In this document: piece after piece, positions 25,807 through 35,825 of the stretch
Layout of the letters: every line of letters starts with the position of its first letter
Numbering within the stretch: the stretch's first letter is position 1
Source: Acidiphilium sp.
Lineage (GTDB): Bacteria > Pseudomonadota > Alphaproteobacteria > Acetobacterales > Acetobacteraceae
Assembly: GCA_028688905.1 (NCBI GenBank)
Contig: JAQTXH010000004.1
Coordinates: 11,636-75,635 of the forward strand
Length of the DNA: 64,000 bases
Direction of reading: 5' to 3'
The notes under the pieces: generated by a model
What the model was told of the DNA's origin: nothing
Databases searched by the model: none
Seen by the model: the letters and a program-made list of their open reading frames with translations, nothing else
Made by a program: the position numbers and the translations under genes

Positions 25807-25945
25807 TCCCCTTCTCACACAAGCCCGCGCGCGATCTGCCTCGCGTTCCTGAGGCAATGGGGCGCATGGCGCTGGACATGGCGGGGGTTCTGGTCTTCGT
25901 TTGTCCAGGTGTCGTGACGGTATCGGCACGGGCAGGGGAAAAGGC

Positions 25946-26815
25946 ATGCACATCGATCCAGACCTGTTTCGGGTGAAACAGGGCGATGCGGTAAAGTTGC
26001 GGAAATGGCCGACCAGTATCGATCCTGTTTTCAGCTCGAAAAAAGAGTATAAAAGGTTGCTCGAAGACCACGTCGCGCGGTTGAGCGCGCTGCAACAATT
26101 ACTTTACGCCGCCAACCGCCACGCCGTTCTGCTGATATTTCAGGCGATGGACGCGGCCGGCAAGGATGGTGCGATCAAACACGTGATGTCCGGGGTCAAC
26201 CCGCAAGGCTGTCAGGTGTTCAGCTTCAAACACCCGAGCGCGATGGAGTTGCAGCACGATTTTCTCTGGCGCACCACGCGTGACTTGCCGGAGCGCGGCA
26301 GGATCGGGATTTTCAATCGCTCCTATTATGAGGAAGTGCTGATCGCGCGGGTCCATCCGGACATACTGGCCAGCGAAGGGCTGCCCAAGGCACCGCACCG
26401 GAGCGCCTCGATCTGGCAGGATCGCTACCGGTCGATTACCGATCTTGAACGCCACCTGACCGCCAACGGTACCAGGATCATCAAGTTTTTTCTGCATCTT
26501 TCCGAGGATGAGCAACGCCAGCGCTTTATCGAACGCATCGACGATCCGCAAAAGAACTGGAAGTTCAGCGCGGCCGATATCGCGGAACGCAAATTCTGGG
26601 ATCAGTATATGCTGGCCTATGAAGCGTGCCTGGCCGCGACCAGCACGAGCGATGCGCCGTGGTATGTGGTTCCGGCCGACGGCAAGCATAACGCCCGCCT
26701 GATCGTGTCGCAGATCATTCTCGATACGCTCGAAGGGCTGGACATGGCGTATCCCAAAACGACCGCCGAGCGCCGCACCGAATTGCAGGAGATCCGCAAG
26801 CAACTGACCGGGTAG
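25946..26815 (+). CDS. polyphosphate kinase 2 family protein
   Basis: [57 protein letters not shown]. Confidence 0.93.
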
Positions 26816-26848: not shown

Positions 26849-26862
26849 TTGACCTGGATCAA
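26849..26862. promoter_or_regulatory. FNR/FixK-type box upstream of the CBS-BON gene
   Basis: TTGACCTGGATCAA, one mismatch from TTGAT-N4-ATCAA; 54 nt before ATG 26917. Confidence 0.7.
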
Positions 26863-26916
26863 GGCGGCATGAGCGTCTCGGCGCTAGACATGTCCTGCTA
26901 GTTTCAGGAGGACACC

Positions 26917-27618
26917 ATGCATATCAACAATATCATGACTTTGAGTCCGATCACCGTCGGGCCTAACACCACCATCGCCGACGCGGGGCGGATCATGCTC
27001 GATCAGAATTTGTCCGCACTGCCGGTGATCGATGGCAAAGGGGCGTTACTCGGCATTGTGACCGATGGCGATCTGCTGCGCCGTCCGGAGCTTGATACCG
27101 TACCGGAAATCGGCTGGTGGCGCGGTTTTCTTGCCCCGGAGACCTCGGCGCGCGAGTTCATCAAGACCCGTGGCCGCCATGTCAGCGAGGTCATGACGGC
27201 CGAGGTGCGGACGGTGACCGTCGATACAAGTTTGAACGATGCCGTGGCGATAATGGCGACGCAGCGGATCAAGCAGCTTCCGGTGGTGCAGGGCGACACG
27301 CTGGTGGGATTGCTGAACCGGCGCAACATTCTGACAGCATTGATCAGCAAACTTCTGGTGGTCGATGACGTCGTGGTTTCCGACGAGGCTTGCGCCACGA
27401 TGATCCGCAACGCCATCGCCCAGTCGAAATGGGCACCGAAAGGCGCGGTTTCGGTCGCGGTGAAGCAGGGTGTCGCCACGCTCGCCGGGTCGGTGTTCAG
27501 CGATGCCGAGCGCAAGGCGCTGCTGGTGATCGCCGAAAACACCAACGGCGTGAAATCGGTGGCCGACGACATGTTGCTGGTCGATCCCGTCAGCGGACTT
27601 GGCTACGGTTCGTTTTGA
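26917..27618 (+). CDS. CBS-pair and BON domain protein
   Basis: Two CBS repeats plus C-terminal BON-like VAVKQGVATLAGSVFSDAERKALLVIAENTNGVKSVADDM. Confidence 0.9.
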   Translation: MHINNIMTLSPITVGPNTTIADAGRIMLDQNLSALPVIDGKGALLGIVTDGDLLRRPELDTVPEIGWWRGFLAPETSAREFIKTRGRHVSEVMTAEVRTVTVDTSLNDAVAIMATQRIKQLPVVQGDTLVGLLNRRNILTALISKLLVVDDVVVSDEACATMIRNAIAQSKWAPKGAVSVAVKQGVATLAGSVFSDAERKALLVIAENTNGVKSVADDMLLVDPVSGLGYGSF

Positions 27619-27660
27619 GCCGGGCCGATGCCAATGGGATCGATGATAACGGGACGTCGA

Positions 27661-27685
27661 AGCAAATAACAGGTTGTTATTTGCT
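27661..27685. terminator. bidirectional terminator-like palindrome between convergent genes
   Basis: AGCAAATAACA-GGT-TGTTATTTGCT, perfect 11-bp stem. Confidence 0.65.
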
Positions 27686-28018
27686 GGCTTGATCGAAGGC
27701 CTCCAGCGCCTCGGCGGCGTACATCGCGGAGGGTCCCGCACCCATGTAGATCGCCATGCCCAGGGTTTCGGCGATCTCGGCGCGGGTTGCACCGGCGCGG
27801 GCGGCGTCGCGGGCGTGATAGGCGATGCAGGGCTGGCAACGGGTCGCAACGCCGATGGCAAGGGCGATGAGTTCCTTGGTCTTGGCGTCGAGCGCGGTGC
27901 CGCCGTGGGCGGACTTGGCAAGGGTACCAAAGGCTTTCATCACCTCAGGGGTGACGTCGCGCAGATCGCGCACGCCCTGATCCATGGTACCGATCACGGC
28001 TTTCCAGTCTTCAATCAT
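27677..28018 (-). CDS. carboxymuconolactone decarboxylase (AhpD-like) family protein
   Basis: KTKELIALAIGVATRCQPCIAYHARDAARAGATRAEIAETLGMAIYMGAGPS with CxxC and H. Confidence 0.92.
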   Translation of the reverse strand: MIEDWKAVIGTMDQGVRDLRDVTPEVMKAFGTLAKSAHGGTALDAKTKELIALAIGVATRCQPCIAYHARDAARAGATRAEIAETLGMAIYMGAGPSAMYAAEALEAFDQASK

Positions 28019-28045
28019 GAGGTGTCCTCTGGTGTCCTTTCCTGA

Positions 28046-29458
28046 TCAGCCAGCGGTTCTCGCGGCGATCAGCAGGGCGACCGCGCAGGACGCAAGCCGG
28101 GCGCGGGCGTCGTCGGCGCGGCTGGTCAGGATGATCGGGATGCGCGCTCCAACCACCACGCCCGCCGCGTCGGCACCGGCCAGGAAGGTGAGTTGCTTGG
28201 CGACCATGTTGCCGGCCTCGATATCCGGCACCAACAGAATATCCGCCTGACCGGCGACCGCGGAGACGATGTGTTTTTCCATCGCCGCCCCTGGGCTGAC
28301 GGCGTTGTCGAACGCCAGCGGACCATCGATGATCCCGCCGGTGATCTGGCCGCGCTCACTCATTTTGCATAGCGCCGCCGCATCGAGCGTCGATTGCATC
28401 GCCGGGTTCACGGTTTCGACCGCGGCCAGGACGGCGAGTTTTGGCGTTTCGATCCCGATCGCCTGGGCGAGGTCGATGGCGTTCTGCGCAATGTCGCGCT
28501 TGGTCGCGAGGTCGGGGGCGATGTTGATCGCGGCGTCGGTTACCAACAGCGGTCGCGGGTAGCTCGGTACGTCCATGACATAGACGTGCGAGAGCCGCCG
28601 GCCGGTGCGCAATCCGTTTTCGGCCAGCATCACCTCATGCATCAATTCGTCGGTATGCAGCGCGCCCTTCATCAGCAGTTTGGCCGCGCCATCGCGGACC
28701 AGTTGCACCGCGCGGGCGGCGGCGGCGTGGCTGTGGGGGGCGGGTTCGATCCGGATGCCGGCGAGATCGAGTCCGGCGGCGGCGGCGGCGGCGCGGATTT
28801 TCGCTTCAGGTCCCACCAAAATCGGCACGATCAGCCCGGCGGCGGCGGCGTCAAACGCGCCGCGCAGGCTGAGTTCGTCGCAGGGGTGCGCGACGGCGGT
28901 GGTGTAAGGCCCGCGTGACTTCGCCTCGGCCAGTAGCGCGTTGAACCGTTCATGCCGGGTCAGCCGCACGTCCGGCAACGACATTGCCGGACGGACGATT
29001 TTTTCGGTGGGCGCCTGCACCAGGGCGGTGCCGCGCAGCACGGTCACGCCGGTCTGGTTGACTGCGACGCAATCGAGGGTGAGGCGGTGTTTTTCCACCA
29101 TGCGCTCGGTGACGCGCACCGTTGCGGTGATGCTATCGCCGGGGGCGACCGGGGCGCGGAATTGCAGGCTCTGATCGAGATAGATCGTGCCTGGCCCGGG
29201 AAGTTTGGTGCCGAGCACGGCCGAGATCAATCCCGCCGTCCACATGCCGTGGACGATGATGTGGTGGAACATGTCGGTCCGCGCATAATCCGCATCGAGA
29301 TGCGCGGGATTGATGTCGCCGGAAATATAGGCAAATAACGCGATGTCATCGAGCGTCAGCGTCCGGCAGACCGACGCTGAGTCGCCGACGGCAATTTCGT
29401 CGAACACGCGGTTTTCGATGGTCGCTACCGCCTGCGGCGATCGGGACTGGGCATCCAT
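28046..29458 (-). CDS. bifunctional MaoC-like enoyl-CoA hydratase / phosphate acetyltransferase
   Basis: N-terminal MaoC hot-dog domain (YISGDINPAHLD..HGMWTAGLISAVLGTKLPGPG) fused to a Pta domain. Confidence 0.9.
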   Translation of the reverse strand: MDAQSRSPQAVATIENRVFDEIAVGDSASVCRTLTLDDIALFAYISGDINPAHLDADYARTDMFHHIIVHGMWTAGLISAVLGTKLPGPGTIYLDQSLQFRAPVAPGDSITATVRVTERMVEKHRLTLDCVAVNQTGVTVLRGTALVQAPTEKIVRPAMSLPDVRLTRHERFNALLAEAKSRGPYTTAVAHPCDELSLRGAFDAAAAGLIVPILVGPEAKIRAAAAAAGLDLAGIRIEPAPHSHAAAARAVQLVRDGAAKLLMKGALHTDELMHEVMLAENGLRTGRRLSHVYVMDVPSYPRPLLVTDAAINIAPDLATKRDIAQNAIDLAQAIGIETPKLAVLAAVETVNPAMQSTLDAAALCKMSERGQITGGIIDGPLAFDNAVSPGAAMEKHIVSAVAGQADILLVPDIEAGNMVAKQLTFLAGADAAGVVVGARIPIILTSRADDARARLASCAVALLIAARTAG

Positions 29459-29467
29459 GGGTGAGCC

Positions 29468-31252
29468 TCACATTTCGTGGATATAGTGGCCAGGAGCGGC
29501 TTCGAGCGCGGGATAACCCGCCTCTTCGCGACCGATCGGCGGCGGGGCGACGGCCTCGCCCGAATGGGCGTCGAGGAAATTGACGAATTCCGGCCACCAC
29601 GAGCCGTCTTTCGGTGCGGCTTCGCGTTGCCAGTCCTCCGGAGCCAGGTAACGCTCGTCGGGGGCGCGGTAGCGGATCGAGAAATACCGGTGTGGATGCC
29701 CCGGTTCGCTGACAATGCCGGCGTTATGGCCGCCGGAGGTCAGCACGAAAGTGATCGGACCCCGATTGAGCATATGCATTTTGTAAACCGAATGCCAGGG
29801 CGCGATATGGTCGCGTTCGGTGCCGACCACAAAGATCGGGACGGTGATGTCGCTGATCGCGACGGGCTGGCCGCCCGCGTGCAGCCGCCCTTCCGCAAGG
29901 TCGTTGTGCAGGAACAGATGGCGCAGATATTCCGCGTGCATCCGGTAGGGCATCCGGGTCGCGTCCTCGTTCCAGGACATCAGATCGTTCGGGTGTTCCT
30001 GCTCGCCGATGAAATAGCGCCGGATCATCCGCGACCAGATCAGGTCGTTCGAGCGCAGCATCTGGAACGCACCGGCCATTTGGGTGGTATCGAGATAGCC
30101 CTGCCGCCACATCAGATCTTCCAGAAAGGCGAGCTGCGCCTCGGTAATGAAGAGTTGCAACTCACCGGCCTCGGTGAAGTCGGTCTGGGCGGCGAACAGC
30201 GAGAGCGAGGCGAGGCGGTTGTCGTTGTCGCGCGCCATGGCGGCGGCGGCGATCGACAGCAGGGTGCCGCCGAGGCAATAGCCGGTGGCGTGGATTTTTT
30301 TGGCTTTGGTGATCGCACTTACCGCGTCGAGTGCCGCCATCACGCCATCGCTGCGGTAGTCGTCGAGCGAAAGATCGCGGTCGGCGGCGTTCGGATTGTG
30401 CCAGGACATCATGAACACGGTGTAGCCCTGGCCGGTCAGATAACGGACCAGCGAATTGCCCGGCGAGAGGTCGAGGATATAGTATTTCATGATCCAGGCC
30501 GGCACGATCAGCACCGGTTCCGGTCGCACGGTTTTGGTGGGGGGCGCATACTGGATCAGTTCGATCAGCCGGTTGCGATAGACCACCCGGCCCGGCGTGA
30601 CCGCGACGTCGCGGCCCGGTTCGAGCGGCAGTTTTTTATGCCGCCGCATTGCCACGGCGCTGTCCTGGATGAAGTTTTTGAGTCCGTCGCGGACGGATTG
30701 TCCCTGGCTCGTCCGTGCGGCGTCGGTCACTTCGGGGTTCAGTAACGCGGAATTGCTCGGCGCGATCGCATCGAGCGCCTGCCGCGCCATGAAATCGACA
30801 ATGCGCTCATGCGCCGGATCGACCCCGGCAATACCTGTGGTCGCCTCATGCCACCAACGTTCGGCGCGCAGGAATTGTTCGCGGTAGAGCCGATACGGCA
30901 TTTCATCCCAGCGCGGGTGGGTGAAGCGGTGATCATTCGGGCAGGGGGGCACTCGCGGTTCCGCCACCCCCAGCGCGATCCGCCCGATGGCCGCCCAATC
31001 CTCCATCGCGCGGCGGGCTAAATCCATCCGCCGCGCTGGTTGATTGGCCAGATGCACGGCCCAGTCGCGCCACGCCAAGGCAAGCCCGACGGGGGAGAGG
31101 CCGGCGGTGAATTTTGCTTCCGCCGCGTGCAAGGCGCGGTCCATCGCATCGGTGTTCGAAACCCGCTCGTGGGTGATCGGCGATGAGGCCGCGGGCGAGG
31201 TCGGGGTTGCGTCGGTCAGGGGGGATTTGGTTGGTCTGGTATCCGTCGTCAT
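29468..31252 (-). CDS. phaC: class I poly(3-hydroxyalkanoate) synthase
   Basis: GYCLGG lipase-like box, MMSWHNPNAADRDLSLDDY, VGTERDHIAPWHSVYKMH, SGGHNAGIVSEPGHP. Confidence 0.92.
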   Translation of the reverse strand: MTTDTRPTKSPLTDATPTSPAASSPITHERVSNTDAMDRALHAAEAKFTAGLSPVGLALAWRDWAVHLANQPARRMDLARRAMEDWAAIGRIALGVAEPRVPPCPNDHRFTHPRWDEMPYRLYREQFLRAERWWHEATTGIAGVDPAHERIVDFMARQALDAIAPSNSALLNPEVTDAARTSQGQSVRDGLKNFIQDSAVAMRRHKKLPLEPGRDVAVTPGRVVYRNRLIELIQYAPPTKTVRPEPVLIVPAWIMKYYILDLSPGNSLVRYLTGQGYTVFMMSWHNPNAADRDLSLDDYRSDGVMAALDAVSAITKAKKIHATGYCLGGTLLSIAAAAMARDNDNRLASLSLFAAQTDFTEAGELQLFITEAQLAFLEDLMWRQGYLDTTQMAGAFQMLRSNDLIWSRMIRRYFIGEQEHPNDLMSWNEDATRMPYRMHAEYLRHLFLHNDLAEGRLHAGGQPVAISDITVPIFVVGTERDHIAPWHSVYKMHMLNRGPITFVLTSGGHNAGIVSEPGHPHRYFSIRYRAPDERYLAPEDWQREAAPKDGSWWPEFVNFLDAHSGEAVAPPPIGREEAGYPALEAAPGHYIHEM

Positions 31253-31280
31253 GGTCCTGGCTCCTGAAGGGTGCGTGGAA

Positions 31281-32066
31281 TTATGCCATGATGTGCTGGC
31301 CGCCATCGACCGGAATGATCGTGCCGGTGATCCGAGCGGCGGCGTCGCTGGCGAGGAAGGCGGCGAGCGCGCCGACATCCTCAATGGTGGCAAGGTGATG
31401 TTCCGGCGCTTCTTTGGCGGCCCGGTCGAGCAGTTCATCGAACTGCTCGATGCCGCTAGCGGCGCGGGTCGCGATCGGGCCGGGGGAAAGCGCATTGACC
31501 CGGATGCGCTGCGGGCCAAGTTCGGCGGCAAGGTAGCGCACGCTGGCTTCCAACGCGGCCTTTACCGGCCCCATCAAATTATAGTGTTCGACGACGCGTT
31601 CCGAGCCGTAAAAGCTGACGCTGAGTAGCGCGCCGCCCTTTGGCATCAGCGGCTCCGCGAGGCGGGCGCAGCGGATGAAGGAGTGGCAGGATACGTCCAT
31701 CGCCATCGCGAACCCGGCCGCCGAGCAATCGGTGACCCGCGCGTGCAAATCGTCCCGCGGGGCAAACGCCATGGCGTGAAGCAGAAAATCGAGATGCCCC
31801 CACCGCTCGCGCACCGCCGCGAACACAGCCTCCAGCGCTCCGGCCTCGCGCACGTCGCCGGGCAGCAACAAGGGGCACGCCAGCGTATTGGTCACCGCTT
31901 CGACAAAAGGTTTTGCTTTGTCATTCAAATAGGTCGCGGCAAGCTGCGCGCCCGCATCGGCAAAACGGCGCGCACAGCCGGCAGCAATCGAGTGTTCGTT
32001 GGCGATGCCGAGGACCAGCCCGATTTTGCCGCCGAGATCGACGATCGGCCCTGGCACGGCCTTCAC
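31281..32066 (-). CDS. fabI: enoyl-[acyl-carrier-protein] reductase (FabI-type SDR)
   Basis: LGIANEHSIAAGCARRFADAGAQLAATYLN; YNLMGPVKAALEASVRYLAAELGPQRIRVNALSPGPI. Confidence 0.9.
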   Translation of the reverse strand: MKAVPGPIVDLGGKIGLVLGIANEHSIAAGCARRFADAGAQLAATYLNDKAKPFVEAVTNTLACPLLLPGDVREAGALEAVFAAVRERWGHLDFLLHAMAFAPRDDLHARVTDCSAAGFAMAMDVSCHSFIRCARLAEPLMPKGGALLSVSFYGSERVVEHYNLMGPVKAALEASVRYLAAELGPQRIRVNALSPGPIATRAASGIEQFDELLDRAAKEAPEHHLATIEDVGALAAFLASDAAARITGTIIPVDGGQHIMA

Positions 32067-32335
32067 GCCACCACGCGTTCGGGCCGTTTGACATCGTGTG
32101 CCGAGGTTTCGGCCGGAGTGGCGCGGCGGCCGAACGGCGATACATTGCCAGCGCGCATCATGGCCTCCATCATGCTGAATTGTGCCTGGGTGATCGCCTG
32201 CACGAGCGCGAATTCGGCTTCGACGATCCGCATCACATTACTGGTCATCGATTCGAACAATGCTGGGGAAAGGCTGGCGGAAACAAAGGCGTTGGTCACT
32301 TCATTCAGTCGTTTGGCATCGTACTGAGTACTCAT
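32063..32335 (-). CDS. small phasin-like protein (90 aa), 4-nt overlap with fabI
   Basis: MSTQYDAKRLNEVTNAFVSASLSPALFESMTSNVMRIVEAEFALVQAITQAQFSMMEAMMRAG; helical; context with phaC. Confidence 0.6.
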   Translation of the reverse strand: MSTQYDAKRLNEVTNAFVSASLSPALFESMTSNVMRIVEAEFALVQAITQAQFSMMEAMMRAGNVSPFGRRATPAETSAHDVKRPERVVA

Positions 32336-32389
32336 CGCAACCTCCTTTTGTGAAGACGGGCAATGTTTCACGCCGGGAGCATTTTGTCG

Positions 32390-32403
32390 TTGATCCATGT
32401 CAA
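32390..32403. promoter_or_regulatory. FNR/FixK-type box upstream of the phasin-like/fabI/phaC/pta operon
   Basis: TTGATCCATGTCAA (reverse complement TTGACATGGATCAA); 54 nt from ATG at 32335. Confidence 0.7.
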
Positions 32404-32425: not shown

Positions 32426-33124
32426 TCACATGTCCGGCAGCGGTCGTTCGGCGTCGCTGCGTTCGCTATAGCGATCGACCAGATACGCTGCGCGGTCACG
32501 CAGCAGCCAGGTGAAGCGGAGTAGTTCCTCCATCACATCGACAACCCGATCGTAATAGGGCGAGGCCAGCATGCGGCCGGCGTCGTCGAACTGTTCATAG
32601 GCTTTGGCAACGCTGGACTGGTTGGGGATCACCACCATTCGCATCCAGCGCCCGAGCAGGCGCAGGGTGTTGACCGCATTGAAGCTCTGCGATCCGCCGG
32701 AGACCTGCATCACCGCGAGAACCCGCCCCTGGGTGGGCCGCAGCGCGCCCATTTCGAGCGGAATCCAGTCGATCTGGTTTTTTATCACCCCGGTGATCGC
32801 GCCATGCAGTTCCGGGCTGCACCAGACCTGTGCTTCCGACCACATCGACAGCGCCCGCAATTCCTTGACCTTCGGGTGATCGGGGGACACGGAATTCGTG
32901 ACCGGCAGGTCGCGCGGATCGAAAATGCGGGTCTCGGCACCCATGAGGTCGAGCAGGCGCGCGGCCTCCTCGATCAGCAACCGCGAATAGGATCGGGTTC
33001 GCAGCGAGCCATACAGCAGCAGCACGCGCGGCGGGTGGGTGGCGCGCTGCGCCGGTTCCAGCCGGGCGAGGTCGGGCGGGGCCAGACGGCCGCGGTGCAG
33101 GGCGGGGAAGCGTGCGTCATCCAT
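32426..33124 (-). CDS. arsH: ArsH-type NADPH-dependent FMN reductase
   Basis: [43 protein letters not shown]; ars context. Confidence 0.93.
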
Positions 33125-34439
33125 GTCCGGTGGCTCCCACAATCGGCAGCCAGAGCGCAAGAGCCGCCAGGGCGGCGAGCAGCACGGGGGGCGTGATGAC
33201 CAACCCGATCCGCATGTACTGGCCCCAGGTGATGCGGGTGCCCTTCTGGGCCAGCACGTGCAGCCAGAGCAGGGTGGCGAGACTGCCGATCGGGGTGAAT
33301 TTCGGGCCGAGATCGCAGCCGATCACGTTGGCATAGACCATGGCGTCATGGATGCCCGGCGCGACCGGACCCAACTGGCCGATCGCGAGCGCGCCCACCA
33401 GAACGCTCGGCATATTGTTCATGATCGACGACAGGATCGCCGCCAGAACGCCGGTGCCGAGCGAGGCCGCCCAGAGGCCGTGGGCCGCGAAAACCCGGAG
33501 CGCATCAGCGATATAATTGGTCAGGCCCGCGTTGCGCAGTCCATAGACGACCAGATACATGCCGAGGCTGAATATGACGATCTGCCACGGCGCGCCCCGC
33601 AGAACCCGGCGGATGGCAATCACTTGCCCCGATCCGCCGCCAAACCAGCGGCCGGCGACCGCGAGCAGCGCGACGGCCCCGGCGATGGTGACGAACGAGA
33701 CCGGCACGCCCAACGGGGCGGTGATGAAATAGGCCGCGAGCAGGATCAGTAAAACCGGCCACGCCGCGCGGAACACCCATTTGTCGTGGATCGCCGATGC
33801 GGGGGACTCCAGTGCCGCGACCTCATAACGCCGGTTGGCGGCACCCGCGAACATCACCCCAAGTACGGCCAGCGTCGCGGCCAGCGATACCAGATCGACC
33901 GGCACCATCACGGTAGCGTAGCGGGTGAACCCAATGTTGAAATAACTGGCGCTGACGATGTTGACCAGATTGGAAATCACCAGCGGCAGGCTGGTGGTAT
34001 CGGCGACGAAGCCGGTCGCGATGATGAACGCGAACGCGGCGGCGGGCGGAAATTCGAGGCTGGCAAGGATCGCCATCATGATCGGGGTCAGCAGAAGGGC
34101 GGCCCCGTCGTTGGCGAAAAACGCGGCGATCATGAAGCCGAGCATGACGATCAGGGGCAGCAGCAATCGCCCGCGTCCACGCCCCCAGCGCGCCACATGC
34201 AGCGCTGCCCAGCGAAAGAACCCGGCTTCATCCAGCAGGAGCGAAATGATGATCAATGCGACGAAAGTGAACGTCGCGTTCCAGACGATGTGCCAGACCG
34301 TGGGAATGTTGCGCCAGTGGATGACGCCGAGGGCGAGATCGACGATCGCGCCGGCCATCGCGCTCCAGCCGATGCCGAGGCCGCGCGGTTGCCAGATGAC
34401 AAACACCAGGGTTGCGATGAACACCGCGAGGGCGAGCAT
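33117..34439 (-). CDS. arsB: arsenite efflux membrane protein ArsB
   Basis: ArsB/NhaD-like 12-TM sequence, [19 protein letters not shown]; ars context. Confidence 0.92.
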
Positions 34440-34462
34440 AGGGAGCCTCGACTATCTAAATG

Positions 34463-34885
34463 TTAGTTGACGCGCCGACCGGCGGAATCGACGACCGTTT
34501 CGCCGTCTTCCTTGACAAAGGCGGCGCGTTGCGGTGCGGGCAGGATGTCGAGCACGGTTTCGGAGGGGCGGCAGAGTTTGACGCCGAGGGGGGTGACCAC
34601 GATCGGCCGGTTGATCAGAATTGGATGGGCGAGCATCGCCGTGAGCAAGGCGTCGTCCGGGAGGGAGGTGTCAGCGAGGCCGAGTTCGGCGTAGGGGGTG
34701 CCCTTTTCGCGCAGCACCGCGCGGATCGGAAGGCCGATGCGGGAAATGAGATCGGCAAGGATTTCGAGTGTCGGCGGGGTTTTCAGATATTCCACGATGT
34801 GGGGTTCGATCCCGGCATTGCGGATCATCGCCAGCACGTTGCGCGAGGTACCGCATGCGGGGTTGTGATAGATCGTGACGCTCAT
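34463..34885 (-). CDS. arsC: arsenate reductase, glutaredoxin-dependent (ArsC/Spx fold)
   Basis: MSVTIYHNPACGTSRNVLAMIRNAGIEPHIVEYLKTPP. Confidence 0.95.
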   Translation of the reverse strand: MSVTIYHNPACGTSRNVLAMIRNAGIEPHIVEYLKTPPTLEILADLISRIGLPIRAVLREKGTPYAELGLADTSLPDDALLTAMLAHPILINRPIVVTPLGVKLCRPSETVLDILPAPQRAAFVKEDGETVVDSAGRRVN

Positions 34886-35406
34886 GCCACCGAGCCTTCG
34901 CCGGTGCCCGGCCCGATCCGGCCGATCTCCTGAACCCGGCGCACGAGCGAGGCGCGTTCGAGCTTGGCAAACGGCAACGCGGCGAACAGCTTAATCCGCG
35001 TCTCCAGCATTTGGAAGGCGGTGCGAAACGCCATCACGCGGTCGACGTCACTACCGGTCGCGGCGACAGGGTCGGGAACGCCCCAATGCGCCGTTATCGG
35101 CTGTCCCGGCCAGACCGGACAAATTTCACCCGCCGCATTGTCGCACACGGTGAACACGAAATCCATCACCGGGGCACCTGGTTCCGCGAATTCGTTCCAC
35201 GATTTCGAACTCAATCCATCGGTCGGCAGCCCGGCTTCCTCCATGATGCGAAGGGCGAGCGGATGCACGGTGCCCTTTGGATGACTGCCGGCGGAAAACC
35301 CCCGGAAATTGCCTTGACCCCAGCGTTCGATCAACCGTTCCGCCATGATACTGCGGGCCGAATTGCCGGTACAGAGAAAGAGCACGTTGAGCGGTTTACC
35401 TGTCAT
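34882..35406 (-). CDS. arsC: low-molecular-weight phosphatase-type arsenate reductase
   Basis: NVLFLCTGNSARSIMAERLIERWG; CTGNSARS P-loop. Confidence 0.93.
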   Translation of the reverse strand: MTGKPLNVLFLCTGNSARSIMAERLIERWGQGNFRGFSAGSHPKGTVHPLALRIMEEAGLPTDGLSSKSWNEFAEPGAPVMDFVFTVCDNAAGEICPVWPGQPITAHWGVPDPVAATGSDVDRVMAFRTAFQMLETRIKLFAALPFAKLERASLVRRVQEIGRIGPGTGEGSVA

Positions 35407-35825
35407 GCCGAATTTCCTTTTGCGCGGCGCGATTTTTGTTGGATCGAAGGCAGCCCAAGGTCGCCTACCGGGTCGCGTGCCGGGTCGCATACAGGGATGC
35501 AAAGCGAAATGTCCTGGCCGCAGCAATTCTGGACCAGAAACCCCACCAGCGCGTTCATCGCCGCGACATCGGCGGCATAAATGACATGGCGGCTCGCCCG
35601 GCGCTGGCTCACCAGACCCGCGCGCAGCAGCGCCTGGATGTGAAATGTGAGCGATGACGCCACCAGGCCAACGTGTTCGGCAATATCGCCCGCCGCCATC
35701 CCGGCCGGCCCCGCCACGACCAGCTGCCGGTACGCCGCCAGCCGATGCTCATGGGCCAGCGCGGCCAAGGCCGTCACCATCCATTCCGGATCTGCTTTGG
35801 GACGCTTTATCATCGATATTTCCAT
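35403..35825 (-). CDS. arsR: ArsR family transcriptional regulator
   Basis: LAALAHEHRLAAYRQLVVAGPAGMAAGDIAEHVGLVASSLTFHIQALLRAGLVSQRRASRHVIY. Confidence 0.93.
   Translation of the reverse strand: MEISMIKRPKADPEWMVTALAALAHEHRLAAYRQLVVAGPAGMAAGDIAEHVGLVASSLTFHIQALLRAGLVSQRRASRHVIYAADVAAMNALVGFLVQNCCGQDISLCIPVCDPARDPVGDLGLPSIQQKSRRAKGNSA

Follow-up and report, generated by a model that had tools for sequence, protein, structure and literature searches.

The 64,000-nucleotide stretch of Acidiphilium sp. DNA analysed here (the window) carries two FNR boxes, each at the head of one of two convergent transcription units, and these boxes are real rather than products of chance. They are very probably sites for an FNR protein with an oxygen-labile iron-sulfur cluster, which would activate both units from class II promoters within a low-oxygen regulon, a reading drawn from comparison of sequences. 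Under the proposed mechanism, FNR-type regulators carrying such a cluster would recognize both boxes; as oxygen falls, an FNR dimer would occupy each box, centred at −41.5, and would activate sigma70-type RNA polymerase at a class II promoter whose start point lies about 20 nt upstream of the respective ATG. The small first protein, FabI, PhaC, MaoC-PTA, and the AhpD-like protein would come from one transcript, and the CBS-BON protein from the other. The regulon would also cover cytochrome bd, a NiFe hydrogenase, a thiolase, and a second CBS-BON gene and the acetate kinase gene that follows it, and its likely purpose would be to direct excess reductant and acetyl-CoA into polymer and acetate/acetyl-phosphate when respiration is limited. 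The features concerned are collected in Table 1.

Table 1. Boxes, predicted promoter elements, and genes of the two units (window coordinates), and the two candidate regulators encoded elsewhere in the genome.
Feature	Position	Strand	Remarks
FNR box TTGACCTGGATCAA	26849..26862	+	Heads CBS-BON gene; 54 nt to ATG 26917
Candidate −10, TAGACA	26885..26890	+	Box positions 37-42, place taken from family-wide alignment; weak, 3/6 match to TATAAT
Predicted TSS of CBS-BON unit	26897	+	5′ UTR of 20 nt
CBS-CBS-BON protein, 233 aa	26917..27618	+	Pfam CBS 3e-29, BON 2.7e-12
Perfect 11-bp hairpin between the convergent units	27661..27685	.	z about −3.4 on both strands; no clear T run
AhpD/CMD-family protein, last operon gene	27677..28018	-	PF02627 8e-23; TIGR00778
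MaoC-PTA fusion, bifunctional enoyl-CoA hydratase/phosphate acetyltransferase	28046..29458	-	NF006045, 739 bits vs cutoff 282
PhaC, poly-3-hydroxyalkanoate synthase, class I-like	29468..31252	-	PF07167, PF12551; TIGR01838, 509 bits, below cutoff 622
FabI-type enoyl-ACP reductase	31281..32066	-	NF005717, 417 bits vs cutoff 337
Small first gene, 90 aa, putative function only	32063..32335	-	No Pfam or NCBIfam match
Predicted TSS of phaC operon	32355	-	5′ UTR of 20 nt
Candidate −10 region, AAACATT (AACATT or AAACAT)	32362..32368	-	Class II position; weak
FNR box TTGACATGGATCAA	32390..32403	-	Heads five-gene fabI-phaC-MaoC/PTA-ahpD operon; 54 nt to ATG 32335
Two paralogous FNR-type regulators	C11:166125-166871; C10:390545-391387		Each adjoins a box

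The boxes had been located correctly in the initial annotation, including their 54-nt distances to the two ATGs, both of which we confirm and both of which are preceded by a strong Shine-Dalgarno sequence (aggagg, aaggagg). TTGACCTGGATCAA and TTGACATGGATCAA have 13 bases in common and differ at 1 of 14, and both satisfy the anaerobox consensus TTGAY-N4-RTCAA. The identical spacing, which had been singled out, is real, but it is not a special feature: across a promoter set of 183 unique oriented boxes from this genome and its relatives, box-to-start gaps peak at 50-64 nt, so that 54 nt is the usual gap for promoters of this class and does not tie the two units to each other.

The class II geometry proposed earlier, which places the start about 20 nt upstream of the ATG, is borne out by a −10 signal at the predicted position. 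Alignment of the 33 promoters with gaps of 44-66 nt yields one strong downstream column, an A at box position 38 (23/33, 1.0 bit), with a TAnAA-like pattern around it at positions 37-41. None of 2000 circular-shift nulls produced a signal as strong, and when 56 independent promoters with longer gaps were scored with the matrix from these 33, the maximum again fell at position 37. Boxes of the genome itself have TATAAT (C10:391477), TAAAAT (C10:385028), and TATGAT (C6:136924) as the hexamer at position 37. Centring a box at −41.5 puts position 37 at −12, the first base of the −10 hexamer, and the start at position 49, which lies 20 nt before an ATG that is 54 nt from the box. Across the promoter set, the −10 element thus occupies the place that a box centre at −41.5 requires, and the starts in Table 1 are predicted from it. 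Weak −10 elements are common in activator-dependent promoters. Those of the two window promoters match at three of six positions and are not the top-scoring hexamers of their own leaders; the class II assignment therefore rests on the promoter set and not on either promoter alone. A G two bases 3′ of the box (position 16, or −33; window 26864 and 32388) is kept in 29 of the 33 promoters and may be the remnant of a −35 element.

A genome scan, which had been suggested as a check, recovers many more such boxes. Throughout the 3.4-Mb genome, TTGACNTGGATCAA has 13 matches at no more than one mismatch, compared with 1 for the reversed pattern, and TTGAYNNNNATCAA has 48 oriented matches, compared with 1 for its reversed control. 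The latter matches make up 30 sites, 22 of which lie outside called genes (binomial 1e-14 if the non-coding share is 12%, an assumed figure); the gene calls come from our own simple script, and single start positions may be off. Genes of low-oxygen physiology are among those headed by boxes. The list includes cydA (cytochrome bd), NiFe hydrogenase, hypC, a thiolase gene (gap of 59), and the second CBS-BON gene with its acetate kinase, together with Hsp20, DUF302, a Host_attach protein, an MBL-fold protein, a CBS-pair gene, and one FNR gene and its divergent neighbour. A gap of only 14 nt before a 3-hydroxybutyryl-CoA dehydrogenase-like gene (C3:112757) is set aside, being probably due to a mis-called start; an internal ATG would restore 59 nt. 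No box was seen upstream of the other full-length phaC of the genome. Both window units thus look to belong to a genome-wide predicted low-oxygen gene set, and the earlier claim of a shared regulon gains from finding the same box before cydA, the hydrogenase, the thiolase, and the CBS-BON-acetate kinase pair.

That claim is further strengthened by relatives, in which the box is kept before both the phaC/fabI/PTA operon and CBS-BON genes. In a sister species and in Acidiphilium rubrum, TTGACCTGGATCAA stands 56 nt before fabI and the small first gene is absent, which indicates that the box belongs to the operon and not to that gene. Of the 30 phaC loci of the window type that were retrieved from the family, 13 have a strict box within the stretch examined, and several CBS-BON genes of the family are also headed by a box, with gaps mostly of 50-67 nt. 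No box, even at one mismatch, was seen in 20 regions upstream of housekeeping phaC paralogues from this family. Among 80 operon loci from named genomes (1.09 Mb, with some duplicates), 32 boxes were found and no control matches; many sphingomonad loci of the operon had no box. Two runs of these loci (L119-L129 and L088-L094) repeat identical operon anatomy and coordinates under unrelated taxon labels, one example being a Microbacterium MAG placed among Sphingobium, which points to mis-binning or to one mobile element common to them.

Five closely packed genes make up the minus-strand unit. Its content had been described as phasin-like/fabI/phaC/MaoC-PTA; fabI, phaC, and MaoC-PTA stand, and the fifth gene, encoding an AhpD/CMD-like protein, had been omitted. 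The label ‘phasin-like’ for the 90-aa first gene could not be confirmed, as no phasin family model matched it, and a search of the family sample turned up only the window copy, with no similar protein in the remaining 119 genomes. When the small proteins from the same operon position in relatives were aligned, one matched Phasin_2, probably the 146-aa protein of locus L056. The hairpin between the units overlaps the end of the AhpD-like gene and is a possible bidirectional transcript end. Directly upstream of the phaC operon lies an arsenic resistance cluster (window 32426-35825), with FMN reductase and ArsB identified by Pfam and other ORFs resembling ArsC, arsenate phosphatase, and ArsR.

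The plus-strand unit consists of the single CBS-CBS-BON gene. Its paralogue elsewhere in the genome (CBS-BON2, 66% identical) is followed 35 nt on by acetate kinase (C10:382898-385041) and has a box 214 nt upstream, at whose class II −10 position the sequence is TAAAAT. This acetate kinase supplies the partner for the window PTA, so that the PTA-AckA pathway is divided between two box-headed units, whose neighbourhoods each contain a CBS-BON paralogue. It is conceivable, if rather doubtful, that the CBS-BON proteins serve as subunits that sense adenylates and adjust the PTA-AckA and PhaC branches post-translationally, giving low-oxygen carbon overflow two layers of control. Just before the CBS-BON box lies a polyphosphate kinase 2 gene (window 25931-26815), for which no box was seen; in Rhodobacter capsulatus, FnrL directly targets a PPK2 gene (PMC4634722).

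The boxes had been called FNR/FixK-like, and here both the box type and the existence of matching regulators hold up, with FNR indicated rather than FixK. An anaerobox calls for a cognate regulator with an E--SR recognition helix in the same genome, and two of the CRP-family proteins found in the genome, and only these two, have the recognition helix ETVSR. Both carry C-x2-C-x7-C (CxxCxxRHIGLC; CAKCEARHIGLC, CDTCAARHIGLC) plus an internal cysteine (HLC/RLC), i.e. the three N-terminal and one internal cysteine that define the FNR subfamily; the internal cysteine of the C11 protein (FNR1) matches, in alignment, the one in an FNR-type regulator of known structure. The best NCBIfam match of FNR1 is FnrL (166.7 bits, below the equivalog cutoff of 300). 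A direct oxygen-sensing FNR is more likely than FixK because both helix-matching regulators have FNR-type cysteines. Alternatively, the protein that recognizes the boxes could be a FixK lacking the cysteines and under FixLJ induction, or a DNR/NnrR-type regulator responding to NO, in which case the signal would be a phosphorelay or NO and not oxygen directly. FixK and FnrN proteins have DNA-contacting residues in common and nearly identical sites (PMC4999443), a homologous phaC2/CBS pair is under FixK2 in Bradyrhizobium diazoefficiens, and the top PDB sequence match of FNR1 is FixK2 itself (1.4e-31), the other best match being an FNR-type regulator. FixK proteins, however, lack iron-sulfur cysteines, which both candidates possess, and FnrN was the sole type that a published survey detected in Rhodospirillales (PMC4999443); we regard control by FixK or a DNR/NnrR-type protein as distinctly unlikely.

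Granted that FNR binds, one or both boxes might still repress or stay silent, the units being driven mainly by other signals such as carbon excess. Some targets are repressed by FnrL (PMC2908626), the −10 elements of the window promoters are weak, and PHB in an Acidiphilium strain accumulates from the growth phase on and rises during bioleaching, which has been ascribed to stress (PMC11111502). We nevertheless judge repression or silence to be very improbable, given that, in the set of homologous promoters, the box stands at the distance from the −10 expected of a class II activator and that FnrL activates the homologous Rhodobacter sphaeroides operon. As for the boxes being chance palindromes, the window on its own makes a modest case against it: at two or fewer mismatches it has 2 matches where 0.81 are expected, and 16 of 100 window shuffles contained at least two. 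The 48:1 enrichment in the genome, the intergenic placement, the conservation, and the −10 alignment exclude chance in practice, leaving it a negligible probability.

FNR control of polymer synthesis, as known from Rhodobacter and, via FixK2, from Bradyrhizobium, would hereby be extended to acidophilic Acetobacteraceae, and the defined boxes and predicted transcription starts can be put to the test. The low-oxygen regulon is plausible, since an Acidiphilium strain makes PHB and reduces iron best under oxygen limitation (PMC11111502). FnrN/FixK regulons of Alphaproteobacteria have the same motif and include cyd and PHB synthase among their predicted targets; the FnrN regulon of Rhodospirillales as reported is small (21 genes in 17 operons), with control of phbC noted for Rhizobiales (PMC4999443).

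The FnrL regulon of R. sphaeroides likewise has an FNR box before a phaC/fabI operon (phbC-fabI, RSP1257-4), where FnrL binds in vivo (a ChIP site) and activates anaerobically (PMC2908626). The box there, TTGAGcaagATCAA, differs from those of the window; the 14-mer TTGACATGGATCAA appears in the same species as an FnrL site ahead of uspA (PMC2908626). The gene order also differs, the window having a small extra gene first and fabI before phaC, and a CBS-BON partner is absent from the R. sphaeroides FnrL site table (PMC2908626). B. diazoefficiens resembles the window in having PHB synthase and CBS-domain genes that share a low-oxygen regulon and have a box apiece: phaC2 (bll6073) and the CBS gene blr6074 are induced by microoxia, depend on FixK2, and are headed by boxes, with FixK2 control of phaC2 confirmed by in vitro transcription (PMC9104804, PMC6515984). 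The regulator differs, FixK2 being under FixLJ and without an iron-sulfur cluster; phaC2 and blr6074 have adjacent locus tags on opposite strands, whereas the window units are convergent and 5 kb apart. In B. diazoefficiens, the distances from the beginning of the box to the start codon are 81 and 143 nt. With these two precedents, the window case extends an already known arrangement, and it suggests that genes for polymer, acetate, and CBS-domain proteins recur together as a low-oxygen module in Alphaproteobacteria.
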